Shown here: positions 1,161 through 15,404 of the stretch, piece by piece | Position numbering within the stretch: position 1 is the first letter of the stretch | Layout: every line of letters starts with the position of its first letter | NCBI RefSeq assembly: GCF_019880245.1 | Contig: NZ_CP082286.1 | Span: 2,870,521 to 2,934,520, forward strand | Direction: 5' to 3' | DNA from: Halobaculum roseum | GTDB taxonomy: Archaea > Halobacteriota > Halobacteria > Halobacteriales > Haloferacaceae | DNA: 64,000 bases | Translations under genes and position numbers: made by a program | Notes under the pieces: generated by a model | What the model saw: only the letters and a program-made list of their open reading frames with translations | Told to the model about the DNA's origin: nothing | The model's database searches: none

Positions 1161-2069
1161 TCAGAGATATCCGAGATCTCTCAGGTGTTCCTCAGGCGTA
1201 CCTATCCCGGTCGCTCCGCCGTCATCTCCCGTAGCATCGAACAGTTGGGGAGTCAGCCAGTCGCGGACGTCGTACACGGTCTTCGGTAGCCCCTCTACCC
1301 CCTGAGCGGAGACCATCGCTCGCATCGAGTGTCGGCCAACTTGGCTATCGTTCGTCTCCTGCGTCTGGATGCCGTGGTCAGACAGGAGGACGAGACGGTC
1401 GCAACGCTCTCGCAGGTCTCCGACCATCCTGTCGACTATCGAATAGTACTCAAACAGTATCTCCGGACGGTCCGCGTAGACGTGTCCCGCCGTATCTAGC
1501 ACGTGAGAGTGAACACCCGCGATTGGAACCTCCAACGTCGCCATCGCAGACAACCATCCAAGTTCCCGGCCCGTGTTCGCGATCAGATCTCGACGGAGGC
1601 GCTCGTGCGTTATTTTGTCGTCGGAAGCTTCGCTCATCCATCGCCAGGCCTCCAACAGGTGTGGTGCGTCGACGATCCCGGGCCACAACCACACCTGCCC
1701 GGTTTCGAACAGAGTTTCGTTCGCCGAGGTCCTGATTTGGATGCCGTCTTCGCTGCCGTCGCTACTCCTGAACGGTCTCCCGAGAAGACGACGCCACCTG
1801 CGAGGAAGATACTGTGTCACTTTACTCGCTGCATCCAATATCGGGTTCCCCCAGTCCTGTGCGTCTCCGGAGATACCGTGATCCTCCGGGCTGACGCCTG
1901 TCGCGACAGTAGCCCACACTTCCGGAGTGTACGGGACATCCTTTGTATGTGTAAACGTTTCAAGTTCGGCGTGCTCGTCGAGGAGTAAGTTATCACAGTC
2001 CCAGCGTGTCGCGAGTTCGTAGTCTGCTGCGTCCAAGGCGAGTACACAGACTGTTTCTGAAGCGCCCAC
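1161..2069 (-). CDS. Alkaline-phosphatase-superfamily enzyme (phosphodiesterase/NPP-like), 302 aa
   Basis: The start is GTG; an in-frame TGA lies just upstream, so no longer start exists. The metal-site skeleton of the superfamily is present: LALDAADYE near the N-terminus (first Asp), PYTPEVWATVATG (Thr nucleophile region), a DTAGH segment and LLSDHGIQ (Asp-His pair), then a further His in GRHSM. It lacks the CxPxR signature of formylglycine sulfatases, so a phosphodiester or phosphotransfer role is more likely than sulfate hydrolysis. It is shorter than typical NPP-type proteins of about 500 aa. The C-terminus ends in LRDLGYL, a tail shared with the three other superfamily members in this locus. 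The substrate is unknown; the neighbouring aglB suggests lipid-linked or protein-bound glycan. Confidence 0.8.
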   Translation of the reverse strand: MGASETVCVLALDAADYELATRWDCDNLLLDEHAELETFTHTKDVPYTPEVWATVATGVSPEDHGISGDAQDWGNPILDAASKVTQYLPRRWRRLLGRPFRSSDGSEDGIQIRTSANETLFETGQVWLWPGIVDAPHLLEAWRWMSEASDDKITHERLRRDLIANTGRELGWLSAMATLEVPIAGVHSHVLDTAGHVYADRPEILFEYYSIVDRMVGDLRERCDRLVLLSDHGIQTQETNDSQVGRHSMRAMVSAQGVEGLPKTVYDVRDWLTPQLFDATGDDGGATGIGTPEEHLRDLGYL

Positions 2070-2265
2070 AGTGGTAGATAGCGATCATGTGTATTGTGTT
2101 GTTTGGAATGGCGATGGCGCGGTTGCAGAACCTGATTGATGGTCGAAGAGGCCACAAGTGGGTATCATCGGAGACGCTCGGGAGTGAAGACAGCGTGGAG
2201 ACATCCTCGTAATGAAGCCGGAATTGACTTGTAGCCAGATGGCCGACGAGATGTCCACTGCGAGT

Positions 2266-3276
2266 ATGAGAGTACTGTGGCTACGGCCTACTACCGGTAA
2301 GAACATTAGTGTCGGCCGTGAGCGCATCGCTGAACATTTGGAGCGGAGGGGGGTGACTGTGGATGTCCGGGATGCAACTGGATGGGATGCTGTGGACGCG
2401 GCACGCGCGGCCTTCGTTGGTCGATACGATGCGATCGTTGGTACTGCACGCGCTGGACTCTACGTCGGGTACCCGCTCGCCGTTCTGGGTCGATTAGGGT
2501 TCGTCGCAGACATCGCGGATCCAATCGACCAGATTAGGGACCTGCCGGACTTACTCTTTCGGACGTTCAACTGGTATGAACTCTCCGTGCTTCGACGGAC
2601 GTCTCAGCGCGCGGCCGTCTACGAGAGCACACGCAATCGCTTGGCTGCCCACGGGCTCTCTACGACACCCGTCGAAAACGGAGTCGATTTCGACAAGTTC
2701 GCTGATCCCGAGGCGAGCGTCGTCCGCCAGACAGAATCGATTCTCACGGAAGCGGGTGTAGACGTCGACAAACCGATCGCGATGTACGTCGGTGGACTAT
2801 CGACTACGTACTATCTATTTGACATTCTGGGGGCGAGCGAACGCTGTTCCGACTGGCAGTTCGTGTTCCTCGGAGAGGGACCGTTAGCAGAGATGCTTCG
2901 AGACGCCAACAACGAACTGGAGAACGTCTTTTATCTCGGTTCGTTCGACTACGACCTTATTCCAGGATTTCTCTCTCACGCGTCGGCAGGGCTCTGCCTT
3001 GTTGGGATCGAACAACCGTTGAAAGTACTCGAATACGGTGCAGCCGGGTTGCCCACGATCGGGATGCACGGTGGGTTGTCGGATCGGTTCTCGGAGGACC
3101 AACTCCTCTTTGTCGACCCATCACCAGAATCGGTCGCAACCTCACTCGACGACCTCCGAACTGACCCGTCTCTCGCGAAGAAGTACGGTGAAAACCTCCG
3201 CGAAGAAGCAAAGCTCCACAGTTGGGCAGATATCGCAGATATCTACTACGAGCTCTTGGAGGCTAGCCTATCGTGA
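2266..3276 (+). CDS. Glycosyltransferase, GT4-like (group 1), 336 aa
   Basis: The open frame starts at ATG 2212, but the Rossmann-type first strand (MRVLWLRPTTGKN) begins at ATG 2266, which I take as the start. The N-terminal half contains the acceptor-side segment and a strand-turn ADIADPIDQIRDLPD. The C-terminal half has the nucleotide-sugar domain with PIAMYVGGLS, VFLGEGPL and a late KVLEYGAAGLPTIG segment. This last replaces the usual ExxxxxxxE region with KxLExxAxGxP, as in many GT4 proteins. The stop overlaps the next glycosyltransferase start by 4 nt (GTGA), indicating translational coupling. It probably adds one sugar to a dolichol-linked glycan on the cytoplasmic side. Donor and linkage cannot be read from sequence. 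Confidence 0.83.
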   Translation: MRVLWLRPTTGKNISVGRERIAEHLERRGVTVDVRDATGWDAVDAARAAFVGRYDAIVGTARAGLYVGYPLAVLGRLGFVADIADPIDQIRDLPDLLFRTFNWYELSVLRRTSQRAAVYESTRNRLAAHGLSTTPVENGVDFDKFADPEASVVRQTESILTEAGVDVDKPIAMYVGGLSTTYYLFDILGASERCSDWQFVFLGEGPLAEMLRDANNELENVFYLGSFDYDLIPGFLSHASAGLCLVGIEQPLKVLEYGAAGLPTIGMHGGLSDRFSEDQLLFVDPSPESVATSLDDLRTDPSLAKKYGENLREEAKLHSWADIADIYYELLEASLS

Positions 3277-4361
3277 ACCCTCTCATCGTCTCGAAGTATA
3301 CAGACAGAATCCACGGCATCCCCAGATACGCGAGCGAACTGTCCAGACTGATCGGGAACTCCACGCTCCTGAGGTACAACGCTCCGGAAGGGGCACAGCC
3401 GACCTGCCAGCACGAGGTCTACCACGAACGTCCGAACACACCGGCACCGGATGCGATAGGGAAGTTCGTGAAACACCCGTTACAACTCACCCGCGCGGAC
3501 GCCGACATCTACCACGCTGCAGACCCACGGGAGGTACTTCCGCTCAGGATGGCGCGACGTCGCCCTCTGGTGACGACACTCCACGACCTCATCGTGTACG
3601 AGTTCTCGAACGCGTTCAAGCGGCGGTGGACTGCCCTCTCGCGGTTCTATCTCCAGTTTCTCGACAGCAGTGATCGGATCATCGCCGTGAGTGAGTCGAC
3701 GAAGCGGGATGCCGTCGACCGACTCGGAATCTCTCCGGAGAAGATCGACGTCGTGTACCACGGAATCGACGACCGATTCCAACCCCTCTCGTCCGAACGA
3801 CAGACCTTGGAACTGGAAGACGATGCAGTCCTGATGGTTGGGCGTCCGCAACCCCGAAAGAACCACAGCGGTGTCGCGGCAGCGCTTGAGAGACTGGACG
3901 ATCGCGGCATCGAGTCGCATTTGTATATCGTAGGAGCGGATAGTGCCGATGTCGAACAGTTGCGGAACTCTGTCAAGTACGACGGGAACCGGATCCACCC
4001 TACTGGGTACGTCGACGATCATAGGCTCGTCGAGTACTACAACGCGGCCGATGTCGTCGCCGTTCCGTCGTACTACGAGGGGTTCGGGTTCCCCGTACTG
4101 GAGGCGATGGCGTGTGAGACTCCGGTCGTGACGAGTGACCGGTCTTGCCTGCCGGAAATCGCTGGCGATGCGGCGTTATTTGTGGAACCTGACGACCCTG
4201 GTGCCATCGCGGATGGGATCGAAGCGGTCCTGAGGGACCGAGTCGTGTCGTCGGAATTACAGCAAGCAGGGCTCGAACGGGCGAAGTCGTTCACCTGGGA
4301 GCGAACCGCTGAGCAAACCAGACTCAGCTACCAACGAGCGATCGACACGTACGCTCAGTGA
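3273..4361 (+). CDS. Glycosyltransferase, GT4 family, 362 aa
   Basis: The GTG start lies inside the stop of the preceding glycosyltransferase. This is a full-length GT-B enzyme. The N-terminal domain contains the TLHDLIVYEF strand-loop and IIAVSESTKRDA, the typical linker before the second domain. The C-terminal domain has VYHGIDDRF, VGRPQPRKNH and the catalytic/donor motif EGFGFPVLE, with E269 and E277 forming the E-x7-E pair of GT4 retaining enzymes. Closest in style to mannosyl- or glucosyltransferases of cell-surface glycan pathways. The end converges with the minus-strand phosphodiesterase gene 15 nt away. Confidence 0.9.
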   Translation: MNPLIVSKYTDRIHGIPRYASELSRLIGNSTLLRYNAPEGAQPTCQHEVYHERPNTPAPDAIGKFVKHPLQLTRADADIYHAADPREVLPLRMARRRPLVTTLHDLIVYEFSNAFKRRWTALSRFYLQFLDSSDRIIAVSESTKRDAVDRLGISPEKIDVVYHGIDDRFQPLSSERQTLELEDDAVLMVGRPQPRKNHSGVAAALERLDDRGIESHLYIVGADSADVEQLRNSVKYDGNRIHPTGYVDDHRLVEYYNAADVVAVPSYYEGFGFPVLEAMACETPVVTSDRSCLPEIAGDAALFVEPDDPGAIADGIEAVLRDRVVSSELQQAGLERAKSFTWERTAEQTRLSYQRAIDTYAQ

Positions 4362-4376
4362 ATCGGTCGGAGGCGT

Positions 4377-6008
4377 CTACCCATCCAAGTAGCCGAGGTC
4401 TGACAGGCGCTCTTTGACATCACTGTCATCACGCGATTCTCCGGGCTCTCCCCGCCGCTCGGGTGTTGTCGGCGGTACGTGATCGACCTGTAGCGACTCC
4501 CGGAACAGATCATCGAGTACCGACCCATCTATGTTCGATGGAACCCCGATGTCCAGAAGTGCCAACACCGTTGGCGCGATGTCCACGATGTCTGCTGTCC
4601 CGCCAGACTCTACAACACCGGGACCGTCGATGGAGTATATGCCCTCGGGGGCGTGTCCATTATGCTCCTGCCTGCGGAAGATGACATCTGACATGACGTT
4701 GTCGACTTGGTGGGTGGTCGAGGTCACGACCACGTCTGGTGCCTTGTCCGCTTCCGGCCCGTCGTATACTTTTTTGCTCAGCCGGACCTCGTCAAACACC
4801 TTCTCACCTGTCTTCGGATCGACGACACTCTTTAACCCTTCGGCAATCTCGCGTGCAACTTCGGGACGGTCTTCCGGGGAAACAATCCCATCCTCAAACC
4901 GATCTGTGTCATTGATATAAATCCCTCCCCAGCCCTTCGACTTCGAGTTCGCTGGGTCGATGTCGCCGTACGTAAGATCTGCGTCTACTGGGAGGTACCC
5001 GGAGACTCGCTTGTACAACCAGTCGGCGGTGTTGAATATCTTTGGATACCGCGACACCGTTTTTGCAATTCTGGACAGATCGATCTGTCGACTGACATCC
5101 TGTTTCTGTTGTTTCTCTTGGGATTTTTTGGTTGGCGCGACAGAGGCGTCGCCGCCTTCGTCCACCGATAGATACCCGTTCTTCTTCAGCCACCCATTCA
5201 GGTAGAACATGGAGTGATAATAACGGAATCCGTGGTCGGAGAGTAGTATGAAGTAATCATCTTCCGAGAGCTGTTCCCGGAACCAGCCAATTTGTTCATC
5301 GAACATCTCGTAGCCCTCGACGGCTCGTTCGGCCGCAGGAGAGAGGTCTCCAGTGCCGAGATCAGACACTAACTCATCGTACAATTCGTGTTGAATCCAG
5401 TCGGTGGCGCTCACCAAGTGGAAGAACAGGTCCCAGTCCTCGGTTTGGAACAGTCGTCGGGACCAGTCAAAGCGGGTCTCCTCGACTTGGATGAGATCCT
5501 CGACGTACGGCAGCGAGCCTCCAACATCTTCTGCATCGCCTTTGGGGGAGACTCGAAACTCGCCGAATTCGTCCTCCAGTTCGCGATACTCTTCGGGAAA
5601 TACTGTCTCGTCCCCTTGGGTCAGCAGTGAAGTCAACACGGGGGAATCTACTTGTGGGGGATAGCTCATCGGGAGATTAACCAGAATTGGAGTCCCACCA
5701 GCGTCGACAATGCGCTCGTAGAACGTCTCAACGGAGATGTCGCTCGATGTTGCTGCGCTGACTTCTGTAAGGGATCCCTCGAATTTCGTGAAGTCGAAAA
5801 TGCCGTGCTTCCCCGGATGGACACCGGTCGCGAATGAAGTCCAGGCAGGACCGGTGAGTGGGGGTGTCGTGCTTCGAAGTGTCCCAGACGCAGTCTCGTT
5901 GAGGAGCGACGACAGATTCGGCATAGCTCCAACATCGATGAGCGGGTCGATAAGGTCGAACGTGGCCCCATCGAGCCCGAATATAACAACCGATGGCTGA
6001 TCTTTCAT
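4377..6008 (-). CDS. Alkaline-phosphatase-superfamily enzyme (type I phosphodiesterase/NPP), 543 aa
   Basis: ATG 6008 is preferred to a TTG two codons upstream. All seven metal-site positions of the phosphodiesterase/nucleotide pyrophosphatase family can be seen in order: Asp in FGLDGATFD, Thr nucleophile in PPLTGPAWTSFATG, Asp and His in SATDWIQHELYD, Asp-His in LLSDHGF, and His in EHNGHAPEG. The central part carries a low-complexity KKSQEKQQKQD linker. It has no CxPxR sulfatase signature and no signal peptide, so it is presumably cytoplasmic. The C-terminus ends in SDLGYLDG after an acidic, charged stretch. Codon use is more A/T-rich than in the right half of the window. Likely acts on a phosphodiester in glycan or glycolipid metabolism; the exact reaction is unknown. 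Confidence 0.87.
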   Translation of the reverse strand: MKDQPSVVIFGLDGATFDLIDPLIDVGAMPNLSSLLNETASGTLRSTTPPLTGPAWTSFATGVHPGKHGIFDFTKFEGSLTEVSAATSSDISVETFYERIVDAGGTPILVNLPMSYPPQVDSPVLTSLLTQGDETVFPEEYRELEDEFGEFRVSPKGDAEDVGGSLPYVEDLIQVEETRFDWSRRLFQTEDWDLFFHLVSATDWIQHELYDELVSDLGTGDLSPAAERAVEGYEMFDEQIGWFREQLSEDDYFILLSDHGFRYYHSMFYLNGWLKKNGYLSVDEGGDASVAPTKKSQEKQQKQDVSRQIDLSRIAKTVSRYPKIFNTADWLYKRVSGYLPVDADLTYGDIDPANSKSKGWGGIYINDTDRFEDGIVSPEDRPEVAREIAEGLKSVVDPKTGEKVFDEVRLSKKVYDGPEADKAPDVVVTSTTHQVDNVMSDVIFRRQEHNGHAPEGIYSIDGPGVVESGGTADIVDIAPTVLALLDIGVPSNIDGSVLDDLFRESLQVDHVPPTTPERRGEPGESRDDSDVKERLSDLGYLDG

Positions 6009-6185
6009 ATCCAAGTCGTGCCGTTAACGCATGGAAAGTTTTGTCATTGGATCTCCCAACGAAATGGGTCGACAGCCATTGGGTCAGGACCGGCGTGGAA
6101 CCGACGACACAGAAGAGGAACAGTAGCCCGAGTGTGAACGACTGGACATCGGTAGACCGTGGTCGGGTCTCTTCTCGAGACCGAC

Positions 6186-7130
6186 CTATTCGATGTAACC
6201 GAAAGCTCGCAGGTTGTCTTTTACCTGTTCCTCGTCTATCTCTGATGTGTCGGAAACTGGGGGCTCAGCGATGATACGGCGGCGACCGTTGGACGGCGCC
6301 TCGTACCACGGTACCTCGGTCAGTTCCGGTCTGTGTATCCGGTTGGCATGCCCTCGGATCGGTACGGGCACCGGCCACGCTCGCTCACCGAACACCTCGC
6401 CATGGTCGGCCGAAACCACTGTTTTCCCACGAGTCTCCTCGATGAGACGTTTCACGGAGGGCACCGCCACCCGGAGATTGTCCTGATACGCTTCGACGAC
6501 TTCGGCCCTGGTCACCTCACCCCTCCGGAGTTGGTCGTAGACGCTGTCCGTTTGCTCCCGATTTGTGTCGACGTTCTCTAACGCCTCGGATCGAGCTGGA
6601 TTGGCGGTCCGGTTTCCGACGGCTGCTTCGCCGATAAACGGGGCGTGAGGCTGCATCAAGTGGACAACAATGCGCTTGTTCGGGTAGCGGTCGGCGGCTT
6701 CGATGCCACGTTGGACAACTGTCTCCGGTAGCGTCGTTCGAAGTTCCTCATCGAAGCCGTCCTCCCAGACTCGGTCGACGGCGTGGAAGTCGAGTTCGTC
6801 AGCGATCTTCGAGAGGTATACGTTCGCCGTCACGTAGACCGTATCGTGGTGTTCCCGACCAGTCCAGTGTCTCCGCACGAACTCCGGTGTGCCACCGACT
6901 CCCGAATCGATCTTCTTCAGTGTTCCACCGTTGAGTTCGCTCCAGAGGACTTCGGCGAACGTGTCGAACCGGCACGCGTCGAGGATAACGAGGATGTCCC
7001 AGTCCCGTTCCGGATACCGTTTCGCCGGGGGCCCAGAATCGAGAATTGGCTTGGCAATCTTCTCACGAAGAACCCATTCGACAGTCATTCGTGCGCTATC
7101 CATCACCCGTGGATTTCCAGTTCTGGTCAT
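6186..7130 (-). CDS. Sulfatase-like alkaline-phosphatase-superfamily protein, 314 aa
   Basis: The frame is open up to 7232, but ATG 7130 is preferred because TTAATAGG lies about 26 nt before it, as in a leaderless haloarchaeal transcript. Motifs are ILVILDACRFDTF (first metal Asp), GVGGTPEFVRR (Thr at the nucleophile position), HLMQPHAPF, and VVSADHGEVFGE (Asp-His). The nucleophile context is T-P rather than CxPxR, so formylglycine chemistry is not expected. The N-terminal MTVEWVLREK segment is amphipathic and there is no signal peptide. The C-terminus is LRAFGYIE, matching the tail of its neighbours. Head-to-tail with the next phosphodiesterase gene, 177 nt apart. Confidence 0.8.
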   Translation of the reverse strand: MTRTGNPRVMDSARMTVEWVLREKIAKPILDSGPPAKRYPERDWDILVILDACRFDTFAEVLWSELNGGTLKKIDSGVGGTPEFVRRHWTGREHHDTVYVTANVYLSKIADELDFHAVDRVWEDGFDEELRTTLPETVVQRGIEAADRYPNKRIVVHLMQPHAPFIGEAAVGNRTANPARSEALENVDTNREQTDSVYDQLRRGEVTRAEVVEAYQDNLRVAVPSVKRLIEETRGKTVVSADHGEVFGERAWPVPVPIRGHANRIHRPELTEVPWYEAPSNGRRRIIAEPPVSDTSEIDEEQVKDNLRAFGYIE

Positions 7131-7572
7131 TATAACCTTACCGACTACCGGGCCTATTAACAAACCATTCATCCACAAATAGTCCAACAGGACACTATCT
7201 GGTTGACACGACGTACTGGAACTGTTCGGCACTGTATATCTCGAACACAGCTCCGAATGATCGATCTGTGTTCGTTATCGAACCTGGCGTTTTATCCCCG
7301 CCTTGTGAGGGGCGATTTGTTGTCGATTGTCTAACTACCCTGTCGATCTTGACGGAAGTGAAGCCTATTTTCCGATCCAAGAGATCGGTTTCGATACCCG
7401 AAGCGAACTCCGATGTGGGACTTTCGGTAGGCGATCGCTTCTCCGAGTGGTTCATTTCCCGTTTCGAAACAGAACAGTAGGTCGATGGAGCGTTCGGGTC
7501 GACCAAATCAGACGGCGAATAACTGCGATATGATGACGTAACCGATTAACGTGCAGGGGGTCACGTTCGGGT
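7131..7572. other. A/T-rich divergent intergenic region, no gene supported
   Basis: This 442-nt gap separates a minus-strand sulfatase-like gene from the plus-strand flippase. Short frames exist on both strands (for example 7195-7506 minus) but none shows a recognisable domain or acidic haloarchaeal composition. It contains the promoter at 7153-7160 for the leftward gene. Nothing else is identifiable. Confidence 0.5.
7153..7160 (-). promoter_or_regulatory. TATA box for the 7130 sulfatase-like gene
   Basis: On the minus strand the sequence reads TTAATAGG, centred about 26 nt before ATG 7130. This spacing predicts a transcript that begins at or next to the start codon. Confidence 0.5.
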
Positions 7573-9063
7573 ATGGTATCGTCTCGGTCGGCTATCTTCT
7601 CCGGCGCCGGGTTTGTTTTCATCGGCATTGTGATCGAGATGGGGCTCTCGTTTTTCGGACAGCTGATCATCGCCCGAGAACTCGGTCGAGTGAGCTACGG
7701 CGCCGTTTCGATCGGCACAACAGTTCTCACATTCGGAGTGACGATCACGATCCTGGGACTCAATACGGGCCTCGCCCGGAACATTTCGCGCGCCGGATCG
7801 AACATCGAGGAACGGACGATGCTCAACTCGGCACTCGTTATCGCGGGTCTCACTTCTCTAACTGGAGCCGTCGTTCTCTACGCGACATCACCGACGCTCG
7901 CCGTGAATGTATTCGGTGACGGCAGCCTAACTCCCATCCTGCGGTTGTTTGCGGTCGTGCTCCCAGTCGCGGTGCTTTTCCGGGTCTCGCTGGGGGGGAT
8001 CCGAGGATATTCGATGACACGAGGCCGGATCTATGCTCAAAACATCACTCTACCGGTATCCAGGATCGTCGGGATCGCGGTAGCGATCCTCCTGGGTGGC
8101 GGGGCGCTTGCAGTCGCTGGTGCGTACACGTTCGCCTACATAATCGCTGCCGCCGTCGCCTTCGGCGTTCTGATCAGACACACGCCGATCGGAACAGGAG
8201 CGGTATCCAGTTACCGGGAACAGTCTCACAGTCTCCTCTCGTACTCGTTACCCCTTATTTTGTCGACGTCGATGACGAGGATCTACACGCAAGCAGATGT
8301 GCTGTTGTTGGGTGCCTCAAGCGTCGGGACGGGGGGGGTCGGCGTGTACCGTGTGGTCTACCCGCTGGCGGGCCTACTGACGACCTCGTCACTTGCGTTG
8401 GGATACATCTATCTCCCTGAAGTCTCGTCGCTACATGACGAGGACAACATCGAAGAGATCAGGAGCCTGTTCAAACTGACGGCAAAGTGGATAACGATAG
8501 CCGGACTGCCGATCATTCTCGCGTTCCTTACCATCCCCAGAGAGATCCTAACGCTCCTGTACGGCCAAGAGTACACTTCCGGGGCAGTGACGCTACAAGT
8601 GGTCTCGATCGGGTTTTTCCTTTCGATCGCAGCGGGCCCGAACGCGAAAACACTCATGGCGTTCGGAGAGACCCGCTACGTCGCAGTCGTCGATACGATC
8701 ACGGCTGCCACGAATGTCGTGCTCAATCTGCTACTCATTCCGCAACTCGGGATCCTGGGTGCAGGCATCGCGACGGTGATCTCCTACGTTGTACAGAATA
8801 TGCTGTACAGCGGTCGAATATACTACAAGAACAAGCTCTCTCCGCTGTCGTGGGGGATGGTCATTCCGACTGGCATCTGTCTCGCGTTCGGCTTCGGTAT
8901 CCTGTTAGTGGATTCTGTACAAGGGCTCTCGACATCCGTGCGCGTTGGTGGATACCTAATAGCTCTGGGGACAGTCGTTCTAGTGAGCACGTTCGTATCT
9001 ATTGGAGATCCGGAAAAAGAGATGATATCGGAGGTCTTCAGTCGTATTCGTGGACTCTATTGA
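7573..9063 (+). CDS. Lipid-linked glycan flippase, Wzx/AglR type (MATE-like), 496 aa
   Basis: Integral membrane protein with about 12-14 hydrophobic helices spread over its whole length. It starts MVSSRSAIFSGAGFVF and continues with the family hallmark ARELGRVSYG near residue 40. Members of this polysaccharide-biosynthesis family move lipid-linked sugars across the membrane; in Haloferax, AglR has this role for dolichol-phosphate-mannose. Here it lies among glycosyltransferases and aglB, so a dolichol-linked oligosaccharide is the likely cargo. Its 3' end overlaps the convergent methyltransferase gene by 7 nt. A paralogue with a damaged start lies at 11349. Confidence 0.9.
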   Translation: MVSSRSAIFSGAGFVFIGIVIEMGLSFFGQLIIARELGRVSYGAVSIGTTVLTFGVTITILGLNTGLARNISRAGSNIEERTMLNSALVIAGLTSLTGAVVLYATSPTLAVNVFGDGSLTPILRLFAVVLPVAVLFRVSLGGIRGYSMTRGRIYAQNITLPVSRIVGIAVAILLGGGALAVAGAYTFAYIIAAAVAFGVLIRHTPIGTGAVSSYREQSHSLLSYSLPLILSTSMTRIYTQADVLLLGASSVGTGGVGVYRVVYPLAGLLTTSSLALGYIYLPEVSSLHDEDNIEEIRSLFKLTAKWITIAGLPIILAFLTIPREILTLLYGQEYTSGAVTLQVVSIGFFLSIAAGPNAKTLMAFGETRYVAVVDTITAATNVVLNLLLIPQLGILGAGIATVISYVVQNMLYSGRIYYKNKLSPLSWGMVIPTGICLAFGFGILLVDSVQGLSTSVRVGGYLIALGTVVLVSTFVSIGDPEKEMISEVFSRIRGLY

Positions 9064-9665
9064 GTCGGAGTTTTCTCTGGCGACAGTCTCGCCATAAAAT
9101 CGTCTTCGAAAGACTCGTAACCTATGTCGTAGAGGAACTGGGTGACCCCGTTCGTGGACGCTCGTGCGAACTTTATTTCGTCGACAGTCCACCCCTTTCG
9201 CTCTGCCAACGTCTCTATCGTGTCTGGGCAGAACCACATCGTGTGGTCGTTGATAACCGAGACATTCATCCCGGGGATCAGTTTGCGCGCAATCTGAACA
9301 AGTGCAAATGGGTAGGGGGTCGACAGTATTAGTTCCCCTCCCTCGCGAAGGTGACTCTTGCAAGAATCAAAGAATTCGCCGGGAGCAACCATGTGTTCGA
9401 TGACTTCGCCGGCGACGATCACGTCAAACTCCTGGTTCAAATCGAACGACTCGGCATCGGCGACGTACACATCGTATCCATGCTCGGAAATCCGCTCTAT
9501 CTTTTCGGCGTCCAGATCGATTCCCACACATTCAGAAGCATTCGAGACCAATTCATCGTGGAACCACAGATCGTCGTCTGGCCAGCGACCGACGCAGCCC
9601 ACGTCGAGAACACGTTTATTCTGTATCCGTGGAAGGATGTAGTCGATAACTGTCTGTCGAGTCAT
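9057..9665 (-). CDS. Class I SAM-dependent methyltransferase, 202 aa
   Basis: ATG 9665 is chosen over an in-frame GTG at 9689 because a TATA-like CTATTTTTAATT lies about 30 nt before it. The SAM-binding fold shows motif I VLDVGCVGRWPDD, the acidic end of strand 2 in CVGIDLDAEKI, motif ADAESFD and the post-II FDVIVAGEVIEH. The last belongs to the methyltransferase-11/UbiE-like group. In a glycosylation island the acceptor is probably a sugar hydroxyl or carboxyl. Haloferax AglP methylates a hexuronic acid, but orthology is not shown here. It overlaps the end of the flippase gene on the other strand by 7 nt. Confidence 0.85.
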   Translation of the reverse strand: MTRQTVIDYILPRIQNKRVLDVGCVGRWPDDDLWFHDELVSNASECVGIDLDAEKIERISEHGYDVYVADAESFDLNQEFDVIVAGEVIEHMVAPGEFFDSCKSHLREGGELILSTPYPFALVQIARKLIPGMNVSVINDHTMWFCPDTIETLAERKGWTVDEIKFARASTNGVTQFLYDIGYESFEDDFMARLSPEKTPTQ

Positions 9666-9689
9666 CTTCGATATATGGCGAGATGGCAC

Positions 9690-10063
9690 TAATTAAAAAT
9701 AGTGCCGACTCCGGGGGATCTGCATTCGATGTTTTATCAATCTTATAACGTAGTACAGACGATCGATTTAGTTCTTAATCGTTGTAGATATTGGTGAAGT
9801 GATGTGTCCGTCGCGACCATATGTGATTAGTCCACTGAACCCATTATGGACTCCGCGGCCGGGTAGCGGTGACTATTCGAACGATTACGCGCCCTCCGGA
9901 GACAGTCGCGACTTCACGCAATGAGGACTATAGCCCAGTTTTCGTACTTCACGGCGGTATATCGGCTCCCGACCGCGTTTTGTGTCCCGCGCTCGATCGG
10001 TGCCGACCCCACGAACTGTTTTTGTTTTGGTCAAAGTCCGATAACGACCCGGGACCGTTCTCA
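9690..10063. other. Intergenic spacer within the glycan island
   Basis: 374 nt between two leftward genes. The part near 9690-9800 is A/T-rich and holds the probable promoter of the methyltransferase (9692-9702). The rest contains short frames without recognisable features. Confidence 0.45.
9692..9702 (-). promoter_or_regulatory. TATA-like element for the methyltransferase
   Basis: The minus strand reads CTATTTTTAAT, centred about 32 nt before ATG 9665. It is slightly further than the ideal 26 nt but is the only A/T block in range. Confidence 0.4.
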
Positions 10064-11152
10064 CTACGGCCCGATGCTGTCGTAAATGCCGTCGAGGTCG
10101 TTCAACACGCTGTTCCAACTGCGTCTTCGCGCGACTTCGGTGGCGGCGTTCGACCAGCGCCTCCAGATTTCGCTGTCGGTCAACAGTTCCTCGAGCTCGT
10201 CCGCGATCCGCTCGCTCTCGTACGGAACCCGAATGACTCCCTCCTCAAGCTCATCAGCCAACGAGAGGGGAACAGACACGACTGGACGACCAGTCGCGGC
10301 ACCTTCCAACATGCTTGCCGGACCGCCTGATTCGCTCCGGCTTGTGACGAGGAGAGTTCTCGCTTTCGCGTACTCGTGTTTGATCTTATCGTGGGGAACG
10401 AGACCGGCAAACGTGACTCGGTCGGAGACTCCGCGATTCTCCGACACCGAGAGAAGTTCTTGGTGATACTCCTCGTCGACGATCGGACCCACTACTCGAA
10501 GGTGGAGGTTCTCGTGATCACGGTCGGTGTCGATCAATTCGGCCAGCGCTTCGATGGATAGTTCGATGTTCTTCTCCGGGATAACCTGCGCGACCATCAG
10601 GAGTCGACCTGCGATCGGATCAGTCGACTCACCGGCGGCGTCGAACTCGTCGAAATCCACGCCGTGGGGGATCTTGTGTATTATGCCTCGGTCGAACCCC
10701 ATCCGGTCCAGAAACCCCAACTCCTCGTCGTCGAACCCAGTCACCGCATCGACAAGTTCCCGTTCTACGTACTTCAGCGGGTTCTTATCGGGATACACGG
10801 CTCCAACGTCAGCCTTGAGAATAGACGGAGTCCTCGGATTCAGTATGGCGACAATCTCGGGAAACACCTGACCGTAGGAGTGCAGGTGGAGAACATCGGT
10901 ATCGACCCGGAACCGAACAGGATTGGCAATAGGGAGAATCTGATGTCCAAACGTCCTTGCCGGGAACCGGACAATTTCTATGCCTTGCTCCTCTGTCCTC
11001 CCCTTCTCGTGTCCCGCTCCTGATCCGTTCGGTAGGAGCGTCGTCGTCAAAACCGTAACCGAGTGGCCCGCTTGCGCCTGTCGAGTAGCGACTTTCTCGT
11101 GCCAATGTGCGAACTCCAGATCGAACGTAGGGCAAATATGGGTCACTCTCAT
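10064..11152 (-). CDS. Glycosyltransferase, GT4 family, 362 aa
   Basis: The open frame extends to 11269, but MRVTHICPTFDLEF at 11152 is the natural first strand of a GT-B fold. Other features are LHLHSYGQVFPE, IPHGVDFDEFD before the donor domain, LLMVAQVIPEKNIE, and SESGGPASMLEG, whose paired acidic residues flank the donor site as in GT4. The N-terminal HEKVATRQAQAGHSVTVLT is the usual acceptor-domain helix. A TTTATA box about 50 nt upstream supports this start. Placed between two flippase genes, it probably extends a dolichol-linked glycan. Confidence 0.88.
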   Translation of the reverse strand: MRVTHICPTFDLEFAHWHEKVATRQAQAGHSVTVLTTTLLPNGSGAGHEKGRTEEQGIEIVRFPARTFGHQILPIANPVRFRVDTDVLHLHSYGQVFPEIVAILNPRTPSILKADVGAVYPDKNPLKYVERELVDAVTGFDDEELGFLDRMGFDRGIIHKIPHGVDFDEFDAAGESTDPIAGRLLMVAQVIPEKNIELSIEALAELIDTDRDHENLHLRVVGPIVDEEYHQELLSVSENRGVSDRVTFAGLVPHDKIKHEYAKARTLLVTSRSESGGPASMLEGAATGRPVVSVPLSLADELEEGVIRVPYESERIADELEELLTDSEIWRRWSNAATEVARRRSWNSVLNDLDGIYDSIGP

Positions 11153-11202
11153 CGTAGATCTCCAGCGTCTGCCAGCTGTGTCGGATTGTAGTAGAACTCT
11201 AG

Positions 11203-11208
11203 TATAAA
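11203..11208 (-). promoter_or_regulatory. TATA box for the 11152 glycosyltransferase
   Basis: TTTATA on the minus strand, 51-56 nt before ATG 11152, would give a leader of roughly 25 nt. Confidence 0.4.
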
Positions 11209-11348
11209 GGCCCACCGCTGTATGCGACTGAGGCTTACAACGTGACAGAGTATCACTAACGTATTTCACCCGCAGTCATCCTAATTTACGTCGGAGCATG
11301 TAACCAAGCGAAGAACCCCAGATTGCCAAGAGAACCTAATCGAGTAAT

Positions 11349-12872
11349 ATGTCAAAGAAATATTGAAATCTGTTCAAGGGTGGAGTGATCATATTCGCCG
11401 GTTTAGTCTTCCAATTAGTAGTCTCGTTTCTCGCGAAGATTGTAATCGCCAGAACCATCGGTCGAGTAGACTATGGTGCCGTTACTCTCGGATCGACACT
11501 TCTCACAATTATCTCGACGTTCGCGATATTGGGGATGAACCACGGTCTAAGCAGATACATCCCACGCAAAGACGATGTTGAGTACAAACGGAGTGTCGTT
11601 CTCTCGGCGTATCAGATTGCAATTCCGACAGCAGTTGTGGCGGGCTTAGTGGTAGTCCTCTTCTCAGACGAGATCGCGGTACGTCTGTTTAACGACCCCT
11701 CGGTCGGTGACATCCTTTGGATCTTTGGTCTCGCGATCCCCTTCGCTGTCACCGTGCAGGTCGGGATCGGCACGATTCAGGGACTTCAACTGTCAGTTCC
11801 AAAAGTCGCCGTACGAAACGTCACCCAGCCGCTCACGAGGTTCTTACTTGTAGGTGCGGTGGTGTTCTACGGCTTCGGGAAGACCGGAATGGCGTGGGCG
11901 TACGCAGGTGGCCACATCGCTGCTGCGTTACTTTTGCTCTACTACGTATTCAATCACCTTCCGCTCTTAGAACGGAAGCCATGGACACGGATGCACTCGG
12001 AACTACTCACGTTCTCGCTTCCCCTCGTCGTGACATCAGCAATGGTCGTCCTGCTTTCACGAGTTGACTCGTTCATGCTTGGGGTGCTCGCTACAACCGG
12101 CGATGTCGGAGTGTACGGAGTCGTCTACCCGATGGCAGAACTGTTGACTGCAGGTCTCGCATCGTTTGGGTTCCTCTTCACCCCAATACTCTCTGAACTG
12201 CACGCGGACCAAGAGTTGGAGGAGATGCGTCGTCTCTGCCAAGTTGTGACAAAGTGGATATTCATGGTGACGCTCCACGTTTTCATGATTCTCACGGTGT
12301 TTCCCGAAATCACCATCTCCCTCTCCTTTGGGGCGGAGTATGCTGACGGTTCGTTGGCCCTTACGAACCTGGCATTCGGCTTCTTCTCCCATGCTGTGCT
12401 CGGTCCGAATGTAAATGCGCTCACGTCTATCGGAAGAACCCGGATGATAATGTATGATAATGTCGTCGTGACAGCCCTTAGTATCGCGCTCAATATTCTC
12501 CTGATTCCACAGTTCACCTACATCGGTGCGGCGGTTGCGACTACAGTTTCGTACGTCTTCCTCAACATTCTCTATACGGTTCAAATCCATCGAGTAACCG
12601 GGATCCATCCGTTCACGGCGGCGATGGTCCGTCCTGGAATAATCGCAGCGATATCTATTGCGACAATCTATTTGCTAACCAACGAGTACCTCTCTTCGAC
12701 TCCACTCACGTTGTTCGCGAATTTCTTTGTGTTCATCGTCGTATACACGTTTGGTGTCCTCAGTTTTTGGGGAATCAAGGAGGAGGAGATCGACCTGCTC
12801 TTACAGATGGAAGATCGGTTTGGCGTCGATCTCTCGATGCTAAAAAAGGTAGTAGTCAGAGTGATGAAGTGA
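11349..12872 (+). pseudogene. Second Wzx/AglR-type flippase, interrupted by TGA at codon 6
   Basis: From ATG 11349 the frame reads MSKKY, then TGA (11364-11366), then NLFKGGVIIFAGLVFQ and about 490 further residues without interruption. Aligned without gaps to the intact paralogue at 7573, the stop falls at position 6 and F9, G11, F16, G18, V20, S26 and F27 all match, so the true N-terminus very probably lies before the stop. The rest has the family hallmark ARTIGRVDYG and about 12-14 membrane helices. Restart at GTG 11385 would remove the first 12 residues and place the start in helix 1. The gene may therefore be inactive, rescued by reinitiation, or affected by a single-base sequencing error. 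Followed by a convergent sulfatase-like gene. Confidence 0.75.
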
Positions 12873-12900: not shown

Positions 12901-14070
12901 CTACTCCATGTATCCCAACTCTCGTAGGGTTTCCTCGTCGGCGTCATAGCGGGTGACCCCGCCCTCGATGTTGAACTCCCTGATGGACGCGATCAGGTCG
13001 TCGTCGTCGGCCGCCGGTGAGCCTTCTAGCGTCCGCGTGCGGTACGGTTCCGAGCGCGAGGGATCGTAGGTTGTGATGTGCTGCTGGTTCATCGCCGCGC
13101 GCCGGTCACCGTACAGCGCGAACGCGACATCGCGCGACTCCTTTCCCAGTTCGTGCTCTTCGTCCCGCAGTAGCGTCGGCACGTCGATCAAAGACACCAC
13201 GGCGCCGAGTTCGGCGTCGACGTTGCTCATGCCGAACGGGACGCGGTGTAGAAGCGGGTGGAGCAGCCCCGGATGGCCCCACGTGTCGTCCTCGCCGAGC
13301 AGTTCGCCGTGGTCACCCGTGAACACGACGCGGGTGTCGTTCGGAATCTGTTCCCACAGGCGCGCCAACTCGAAGTCGAGTTCCTCGACCTCGCGACGGT
13401 AAAGGTCGCGGACTGTGTCTGCCTCCGAGTGGGGGAGGGCCCCCGCGACGGCCCGGCGCGACAGCCGGTTGGCGCGGTCGCGATCGATGGGGGCGCTGTA
13501 GGGGTCGTACGGGTGGTGTGGTTCCATGAAGTGAAGCCAACCGAACCACTCGTCGTGTCCCTCGATCTCGTCGAAGAACTCGGCGATTACGTCGTCAGCA
13601 CGGCGGAACGACTTGTCGAGCCTGACGACCTTCGCTCGTGCGTGCTCGAAGGCGTTCCACATCGTTGAGGCGATCCGGTACGCTTGCGACCCCAGTTCGA
13701 GGCGGTCGGAGATTCGCCCGGCGATTCCCTCGCCGCCGGCGCGCGGCGAGGTGAACGAGTCGAACCCCTCGTCGTAGTTGTACTCGGGGGAGAGTAGGTG
13801 GTTCGTCGTTACGCCCACGTGCTTGCCCGGGAGGTGCGTCGCGACGCTTGTTTCGCGGTGAAGGCCGCGCTCGGTTGCGTACTTGCCGCCGACGATTGCG
13901 GGGAAGCTCCCGAACGTCTCTGGGAACGTAGAGAATGCGAAATTATGCTCAGTGTCAACATACGATCGGGTTCGAGGCATGTACTCGAAATGATCGTAAC
14001 GGAGGGAGTCGACAGTGACGAGCAGTGTTCGTCCCTCGGTCATACCAAATCGGTGCTGTGCACCATCCAT
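12901..14070 (-). CDS. Sulfatase-like alkaline-phosphatase-superfamily protein, 389 aa
   Basis: ATG 14070 is used; ATG 14043 (MTEGRTLLVT) is equally possible and a longer frame to 14136 is unlikely. Motifs are LLVTVDSLRYDHFE (metal Asp), FSTFPETFGSFPAIVGG (nucleophile region with Thr/Ser, no CxPxR), WLHFMEPHHPYDP, VVFTGDHGELLGE (Asp-His) and GHPGLLHP. The tail is LRELGYME, as in the other three family members here. Its G+C-rich codon use resembles the right part of the window rather than the neighbouring flippase. Divergent from the SQD1-like gene, with which it shares a 119-nt promoter region. Probable phosphate- or sulfate-ester chemistry on a glycan; substrate unknown. Confidence 0.82.
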   Translation of the reverse strand: MDGAQHRFGMTEGRTLLVTVDSLRYDHFEYMPRTRSYVDTEHNFAFSTFPETFGSFPAIVGGKYATERGLHRETSVATHLPGKHVGVTTNHLLSPEYNYDEGFDSFTSPRAGGEGIAGRISDRLELGSQAYRIASTMWNAFEHARAKVVRLDKSFRRADDVIAEFFDEIEGHDEWFGWLHFMEPHHPYDPYSAPIDRDRANRLSRRAVAGALPHSEADTVRDLYRREVEELDFELARLWEQIPNDTRVVFTGDHGELLGEDDTWGHPGLLHPLLHRVPFGMSNVDAELGAVVSLIDVPTLLRDEEHELGKESRDVAFALYGDRRAAMNQQHITTYDPSRSEPYRTRTLEGSPAADDDDLIASIREFNIEGGVTRYDADEETLRELGYME

Positions 14071-14189: not shown

Positions 14190-15404
14190 ATGACGATCCT
14201 GATCACGGGTGCCGACGGCTACCTCGGCTGGCCCACGTCGCTGCGAATCGCATCCCGAACGGACGACCGCGTCGTCCTTGTCGATAACTTCGGTCGGCGC
14301 GAGTGGGTCTCGGAGGTCGGCTCAGTCTCCGCGACGCCCGTCGCGGACATCGACACGCGCCTCGAAGCGGCCGAGGAGGTCCACGGCCTCACCAACCTCT
14401 CGTTCGTCGAGGGCGACCTCACCGACCGCGCGTTCGTCGACGAACTCCTTCAGGTGCACGAGCCCGAGACGATCGTCCACACGGCCGCTCAGCCGAGTGC
14501 CCCCTACTCACAGATCAACGGCGAGCGCGCCAACTTCACGCAGCACAACAACATGCAGTCCACGCGCAACCTCGCGTGGGGACTGCACGAGAACGACCTC
14601 TCGGACACGCACCTCATCGAGACGACCACGACTGGCGTCTACGGCGCTCCCGAGTTCCCCATCCCCGAGGGCGGCGCGACGATGGAGAACCAGGGCGACC
14701 GCGACGACGTTCCCTTCCCCGCGATGGCAGGGAGCTGGTACCACCTCACCAAGTCCCACGACGCGGCGAACCTCCGTCTCGCACACAAGCAGTTCGGCAT
14801 CCCCGTCTCGGACGTGCGCACCGCGATCACCTACGGCGCCGCGACCGAGGAGACCGCGGCCGACGACCGCCTCGCGACCCGCTTCGACTTCGACTACTAC
14901 TTCGGTGTCGTCGCCCACCGCTTCGCCGCGCAGGCGATCGCGGGCTACCCGATCACCGTGTACGGCAAGGGCGAGCAGCGCAAGCCGTTCGTCTCGCTCG
15001 AGGACGCCGTCGAGGGACTCGCTCGGCTCGCGCTGAACGATGTCGACGACCGGCCCGACGACCACGTCGTCTACAATCAGGTCACGCGCCCGATCTCAAT
15101 CGTCGAGATGGGCACGACGATCGCGAACGTCGCCAACGAGTTCGGCTTCGACACCGCGGTCGAGCACTTCGAGAACCCGCGCGACGAGGACGAGACCCAC
15201 CAGATGGAGATCGAGAACGACCGCTACATGGACCTGATCGGCACCCGGCGGGTAACCTTCGAGGAGGGTATTCGCGGCGTCTTCGAGCGGCTGGCCGACC
15301 ACACCGACCGCATCAGTGCCTACGAGGACCGCTTCCTCCCGGGCGTCCTCGAGGACCGTCTCGACGACGATAAGGAGGAGACGCCCGCGGCCGCGGACGA
15401 CTGA
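14190..15404 (+). CDS. SQD1-like NAD-dependent epimerase: probable UDP-sulfoquinovose synthase
   Basis: 404 aa, extended short-chain dehydrogenase fold. The NAD motif is GADGYLGW at residues 7-14. Signatures shared with plant SQD1 and Sulfolobus Agl3 are visible: QPSAPYS (101-107), TQHNN (117-121), the TTTTGVYG strand near 145-152, the catalytic pair Y184/K188 in YHLTKSHD, and a TRFDFDYYFG segment matching the NRxDYDxxFG of SQD1. Those enzymes combine UDP-glucose with sulfite to give UDP-sulfoquinovose. In Sulfolobus acidocaldarius this feeds an N-glycan. Here it is the first of three consecutive epimerase genes downstream of aglB and glycosyltransferases, so a sulfonated sugar in the surface glycan is the natural inference. 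The acidic C-terminal 20 residues look like a haloarchaeal extension. Confidence 0.82.
   Translation: MTILITGADGYLGWPTSLRIASRTDDRVVLVDNFGRREWVSEVGSVSATPVADIDTRLEAAEEVHGLTNLSFVEGDLTDRAFVDELLQVHEPETIVHTAAQPSAPYSQINGERANFTQHNNMQSTRNLAWGLHENDLSDTHLIETTTTGVYGAPEFPIPEGGATMENQGDRDDVPFPAMAGSWYHLTKSHDAANLRLAHKQFGIPVSDVRTAITYGAATEETAADDRLATRFDFDYYFGVVAHRFAAQAIAGYPITVYGKGEQRKPFVSLEDAVEGLARLALNDVDDRPDDHVVYNQVTRPISIVEMGTTIANVANEFGFDTAVEHFENPRDEDETHQMEIENDRYMDLIGTRRVTFEEGIRGVFERLADHTDRISAYEDRFLPGVLEDRLDDDKEETPAAADD

Follow-up and report, generated by a model that had tools for sequence, protein, structure and literature searches.

With a little more than even confidence, we read the in-frame TGA at 11364-11366 as the trace of a nonsense mutation that arose recently in the gene of an accessory surface-glycan flippase and that would leave the gene either near-null or with weak rescue from a start further downstream. 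The site lies in a stretch of 64,000 nucleotides (C1:2870521-2934520) that was analysed as a whole and is called the window here. According to the scenario we favour, an accessory haloarchaeal flippase gene of the MOP superfamily would have gained a nonsense codon at position six, just before the first transmembrane helix (TM1). Translation from ATG 11349 would then end after five residues, and the downstream start GTG 11385, perhaps also CTG 11370, would give weak translation at most, making the gene a near-null allele or a young pseudogene. As such, the change looks like an ordinary loss of function that involves no new mechanism. It offers a clean case of an archaeal surface-glycan gene that is open but for one early stop, and it calls for caution in annotation, as a gene finder choosing the GTG 11385 start would mask the lesion.

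What remains open of the gene runs from GTG 11385 to 12872 on the forward strand and encodes 495 amino acids, without a further in-frame stop or frameshift in its 495 codons. In a profile search, its product matched PF01943 (Polysacc_synt) over residues 5-273 with 82.3 bits, compared to a curated cut-off of 28.2, and its residues 2-494 align with haloarchaeal flippases at identities of up to 50%, which constitutes a full-length match. We therefore regard the interrupted gene as encoding a predicted polysaccharide/oligosaccharide flippase of the MOP superfamily, with a predicted role in glycan-lipid translocation. Among its haloarchaeal counterparts in PF01943, those of Haloparvum sedimenti, Halolamina pelagica, Haladaptatus salinisoli and Halegenticoccus soli are 46-49% identical to it over nearly the whole length and have in common with it an LFxGG-like pre-TM1 motif and a neighbourhood of glycosyltransferases, whereas a stop in the pre-TM1 segment is found only in the present copy. 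For the N-glycosylation of Haloferax volcanii, PMC5867893 lists Agl15 as a predicted flippase and AglR as a flippase-related protein; a similar role is presumed here from family and cluster, with glycosyltransferases and a UDP-sulfoquinovose synthase-like gene nearby. A close orthologue by which the TGA could be dated, that is, one exceeding about 50% identity along the entire protein, was not found in 170 genomes of the family, 392 genomes of the order, 72,556 plasmid records or the genome_contigs collection, and a 24-base pattern around the TGA site had no match in viral_contigs. The genome itself holds four matches to the interrupted flippase, itself included. The intact divergent paralogue in the window, flippase A (7573..9063, +; 496 amino acids), is 34% identical to it and stands far apart from it in the tree, so that the redundancy between the two suggested in the earlier note finds no support.

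Read directly from the assembly, the codons ATG (11349), TCA, AAG, AAA and TAT precede the TGA (11364-11366), and AAT, CTG, TTC, AAG, GGT and GGA lead from there to GTG (11385); the TGA is in the same frame as ATG 11349 and the flippase ORF of 11385-12872. As an in-frame TAA is located 5' of this ATG, at 11337, ATG 11349 is the sole in-frame ATG, GTG or TTG between the two stops. It lies 12 codons before GTG 11385, a distance equal to that in the paralogue, with close relatives having at least 13. On the grounds of frame, distance and elimination, and not of upstream sequence similarity, we consider it the putative original start, now followed by a five-codon remnant (MSKKY) that ends in the in-frame TGA (11349..11366, +). 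A frameshift origin was rejected: the only starts nearby in other frames are TTG 11323 and TTG 11363, in frames unlike the family, and GTG 11380, the frame of which stops immediately, and no start codon in another frame was found to lead into the NLFKGG motif downstream of the TGA. The gap-free alignment to the paralogue at 7573 proposed in the earlier note could be reproduced from the translations, including F9, G11, F16, G18, S26 and F27. Its assertion that conserved residues flank the TGA on both sides did not hold, however, as all six of these residues are located downstream and M1 alone is shared upstream.

The six codons NLFKGG (11367..11384, +) represent the family's pre-TM1 motif, which is now situated between the TGA and the next usable start. 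In the 37 relatives used for conservation and profile counts, which do not include L062 and L070, the last five columns of this motif are occupied by L in 26, F in 25, K in 18, G in 26 and G in 28 sequences, and the interrupted flippase carries the commonest residue (L, F, K, G, G) at each of them. When both strands are counted, a single one of 127,964 six-codon windows reaches the profile score of NLFKGG, namely NLFKGG itself, and the other two frames at this position score -7.0 and -14.1. Thus, the continuation of the frame upstream of GTG 11385 is far more than chance would give, and the coding frame reached at least the codon after the TGA. The column of the TGA is filled by Arg in 23 of the 37 relatives, Lys in 5, Gln in 3, a gap in 2 and Trp, Glu, Ser and Thr in one each (Arg/Lys in 28/37), in line with the single codon change proposed earlier. 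Further upstream, the family frame signal fades by the measure of the same profile, as the three codons before the TGA, KKY, do no better than chance, with 35,869 of the 127,964 windows (28%) scoring as well.

The 5' ends of relatives, which were read from the best-scoring loci (up to 30) of each genome search, bear out the claim of a natural N-terminus upstream of GTG 11385. All 39 relatives with at least 35% identity (35-50%; 37 placed by local alignments reaching the N-terminus, L062 and L070 by eye) start 13-23 codons upstream of the GTG 11385 column, 34 with ATG and 5 with GTG. In the alignment tally, which also counts one copy of the window itself, no relative has ATG, GTG or TTG at this column, where Ser or Gly predominates. 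Upstream of it, an in-frame stop comes no closer than 16 codons in any of the 37 close relatives. In a second, named collection, taken together with a stretch of genome G304, 23 of 23 loci at 35% identity or above (L108 included, by eye) likewise start upstream of GTG 11385; 12 of these proteins also belong to the first set, and one locus (L181, from G304) represents a decayed copy. Six loci were left out of the alignment tallies, namely L062, L070, L051, L044 and L043, in which the local alignment begins past residue 12, and L108; read by eye, all of them start upstream. Homologues that consistently begin at GTG 11385, named previously as the observation that would argue for a natural start there, are therefore not what is found, with 0 of the 39 relatives starting at this position among the matches listed.

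The interrupted flippase resembles a general class of young pseudogenes, those that carry a single nonsense codon in their 5' part, in that its ORF is open except for one early lesion. Its natural frame begins upstream of GTG 11385 and runs into the TGA, a disrupting lesion of the kind that is one mark of a pseudogene. Unlike plain young pseudogenes, however, it has an alternative downstream start, so that loss of function is uncertain. The decay considered in the earlier note is plausible and, if true, recent. By a simple count, 3.2% of the single substitutions in the ORF create a stop; with transitions weighted, zero stops would be observed with a probability of 0.70 after 0.01 substitutions per site, of 0.16 after 0.05 and of 0.03 after 0.1, so that any release from selection would have to be recent, and the absence of a second lesion equally argues for a recent change. 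The interrupted flippase keeps 71 of the 82 columns with a conservation of 90% or more and departs from the other 11. Together with the open body of the gene, this suggests that the protein was under selection until recently, or still is. The fraction of conserved columns kept is the fourth lowest of 38 sequences, and when departures are corrected for overall divergence, the interrupted flippase ranks third highest of 38 (residual z 2.3). These departures are suggestive only, as two relatives without the stop, L006 and L039, deviate more strongly at such columns and the interrupted flippase is without a close sister in the tree, its end branch being 0.83 compared to a median of 0.42. Members of the family do decay, to judge by the copy in G304: L181 (G304:C1:1763000-1772000, about 2717-4197), which aligns with the interrupted flippase along part of its length at 51% identity, is a clear pseudogene with two TAG codons and a frameshift.

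Could the gene nevertheless have retained its function? The alternative that survives best is a tolerated trimming of the N-terminus, in which a functional flippase would be made from GTG 11385, leaderless or reinitiated after the five-codon ORF, and would do without about 12 pre-TM1 residues. We consider this improbable, and such a shift to the downstream start less likely than a recent loss of function. In its favour, TM1 (IIFAGLVFQLVVSFLAKIVIA) is intact downstream of the GTG and the ORF is otherwise open. The GTG-started form would keep TM1, but would lose the conserved pre-TM1 segment, including the motif, and every basic residue before TM1; among the matches listed, no relative starts at this position. 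If the form were functional, the conserved pre-TM1 segment of such flippases would be dispensable. Leaderless initiation as such would not be exceptional. An A/T peak at -26 to -30 ahead of 165 predicted starts indicates that leaderless starts are usual in the genome; these starts constitute an acidity- and codon-filtered gene set, on the upstream regions of which the promoter model was trained, and no A/T signal was seen in a first, crude gene set. For Haloferax, PMC4983044 reports 72% leaderless transcripts, with GUG in 6% of the leaderless ones at about half the coverage. While a promoter-like score is indeed found ahead of GTG 11385 (posterior 0.926), it does not exceed the background (95th percentile 0.935) or the score of ATG 11349 (0.947), the intact paralogue scoring 0.993, and the best-scoring A/T-rich stretch is at an offset of -29, too near the GTG when compared to the usual -36 to -38.

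Reinitiation at GTG 11385, the other route to a trimmed protein and one already raised in the earlier note, may occur, but is disfavoured by the gap of 18 nt between the TGA and the GTG. In Haloferax volcanii, reinitiation drops by 60% at 13 nt and is abolished at 22 nt, as stated in PMC10666635; with a gap falling between these two values, reinitiation here should be weak. The arrangement expected for termination-reinitiation, with stop and restart overlapping or a few nucleotides apart, is absent.

Two further alternatives do without a mutation of the kind we favour, and to each of them we accord only a small chance. In the first, the TGA would be a sequencing or assembly error and the gene intact in the organism. 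The nearest relatives are about 50% identical, and we keep this small chance open because the sequence stems from a single assembly of a single strain. Against it stand the near completeness of the genome (99.91%, 4 contigs, 3.72 Mb) and the nature of the TGA site, which is neither a long homopolymer nor a repeat; a substitution error at such a site is unlikely. In the second, which we deem no less doubtful, the N-terminus would have been lost by recombination near 11367, with MSKKY and the TGA representing non-coding flank. This would account for the misfit of KKY to the family profile and for a 12-codon leader that is shorter than those of all 37 aligned close relatives (shortest 13), but the presence of an in-frame ATG at the paralogue's distance and of the stop in an Arg/Lys column fits a point change, and there is no repeat at the joint.

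That the TGA serves as a tolerated dose-limiting device, by which a low level of flippase from a downstream start or from UGA readthrough, in a shorter or rarer form devoid of the conserved pre-TM1 segment, would tune the choice of exported surface glycan against the neighbouring flippase, appears very unlikely to us. Still harder to credit is that UGA readthrough or recoding yields a limited amount of full-length flippase. While the conserved motif residues do resume in frame right after the TGA, a search for Sec tRNAs, not exhaustive as regards suppressor tRNAs, found none over the cut-off in the genome, its five sub-threshold matches being ordinary Ser, Gln, Thr, Arg and His tRNAs, which speaks against selenoprotein-type recoding. 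In addition, a stop at the TGA column occurs in 0 of the 39 close relatives among the matches listed, and TGA functions as a regular stop codon in this genome, standing at the end of 10 of the 17 listed genes in the window. Phase variation, also brought up in the earlier note, is rejected: around the TGA, tandem and direct repeats are absent and only short imperfect inverted pairs occur, and the 5' DNA of the flippase occurs once in the genome, leaving no repeat tract, invertible segment or silent cassette able to restore the frame.

The recent nonsense mutation that we favour would have occurred in a gene island (1161-12872) that encodes glycosyltransferases, phosphodiesterase-like proteins, a methyltransferase and two flippases. 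Its genes have a G+C content of 0.52-0.60 each, compared to 0.66 for the window. Next to the interrupted flippase, a group 1 glycosyltransferase is divergently transcribed (10064..11152, -; start ATG 11152 chosen by eye), and an intergenic stretch of about 200 nt is common to the 5' sides of both genes. From its sequence, the island together with its flanks looks like a variable surface-glycan island, in which the loss of a single flippase is unremarkable; in Haloferax, alternative glycosylation clusters are highly variable between isolates, as described in PMC5867893. Beside the island, a sulfatase-like gene is found at 12901, followed at 14190-15404 (+) by a UDP-sulfoquinovose synthase-like gene, which matches NF041015 with 338 bits, below the curated cut-off of 575, and then by two sugar epimerase/dehydratase-like genes. 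Within the island, the protein encoded at 6186-7136 (-) has no Pfam match at an E-value of 0.001. Its relatives adjoin 8 of the 23 loci with flippase homologues in the second collection (at least 35% identity, among the matches listed), and it may represent a conserved flippase partner without an assigned role.
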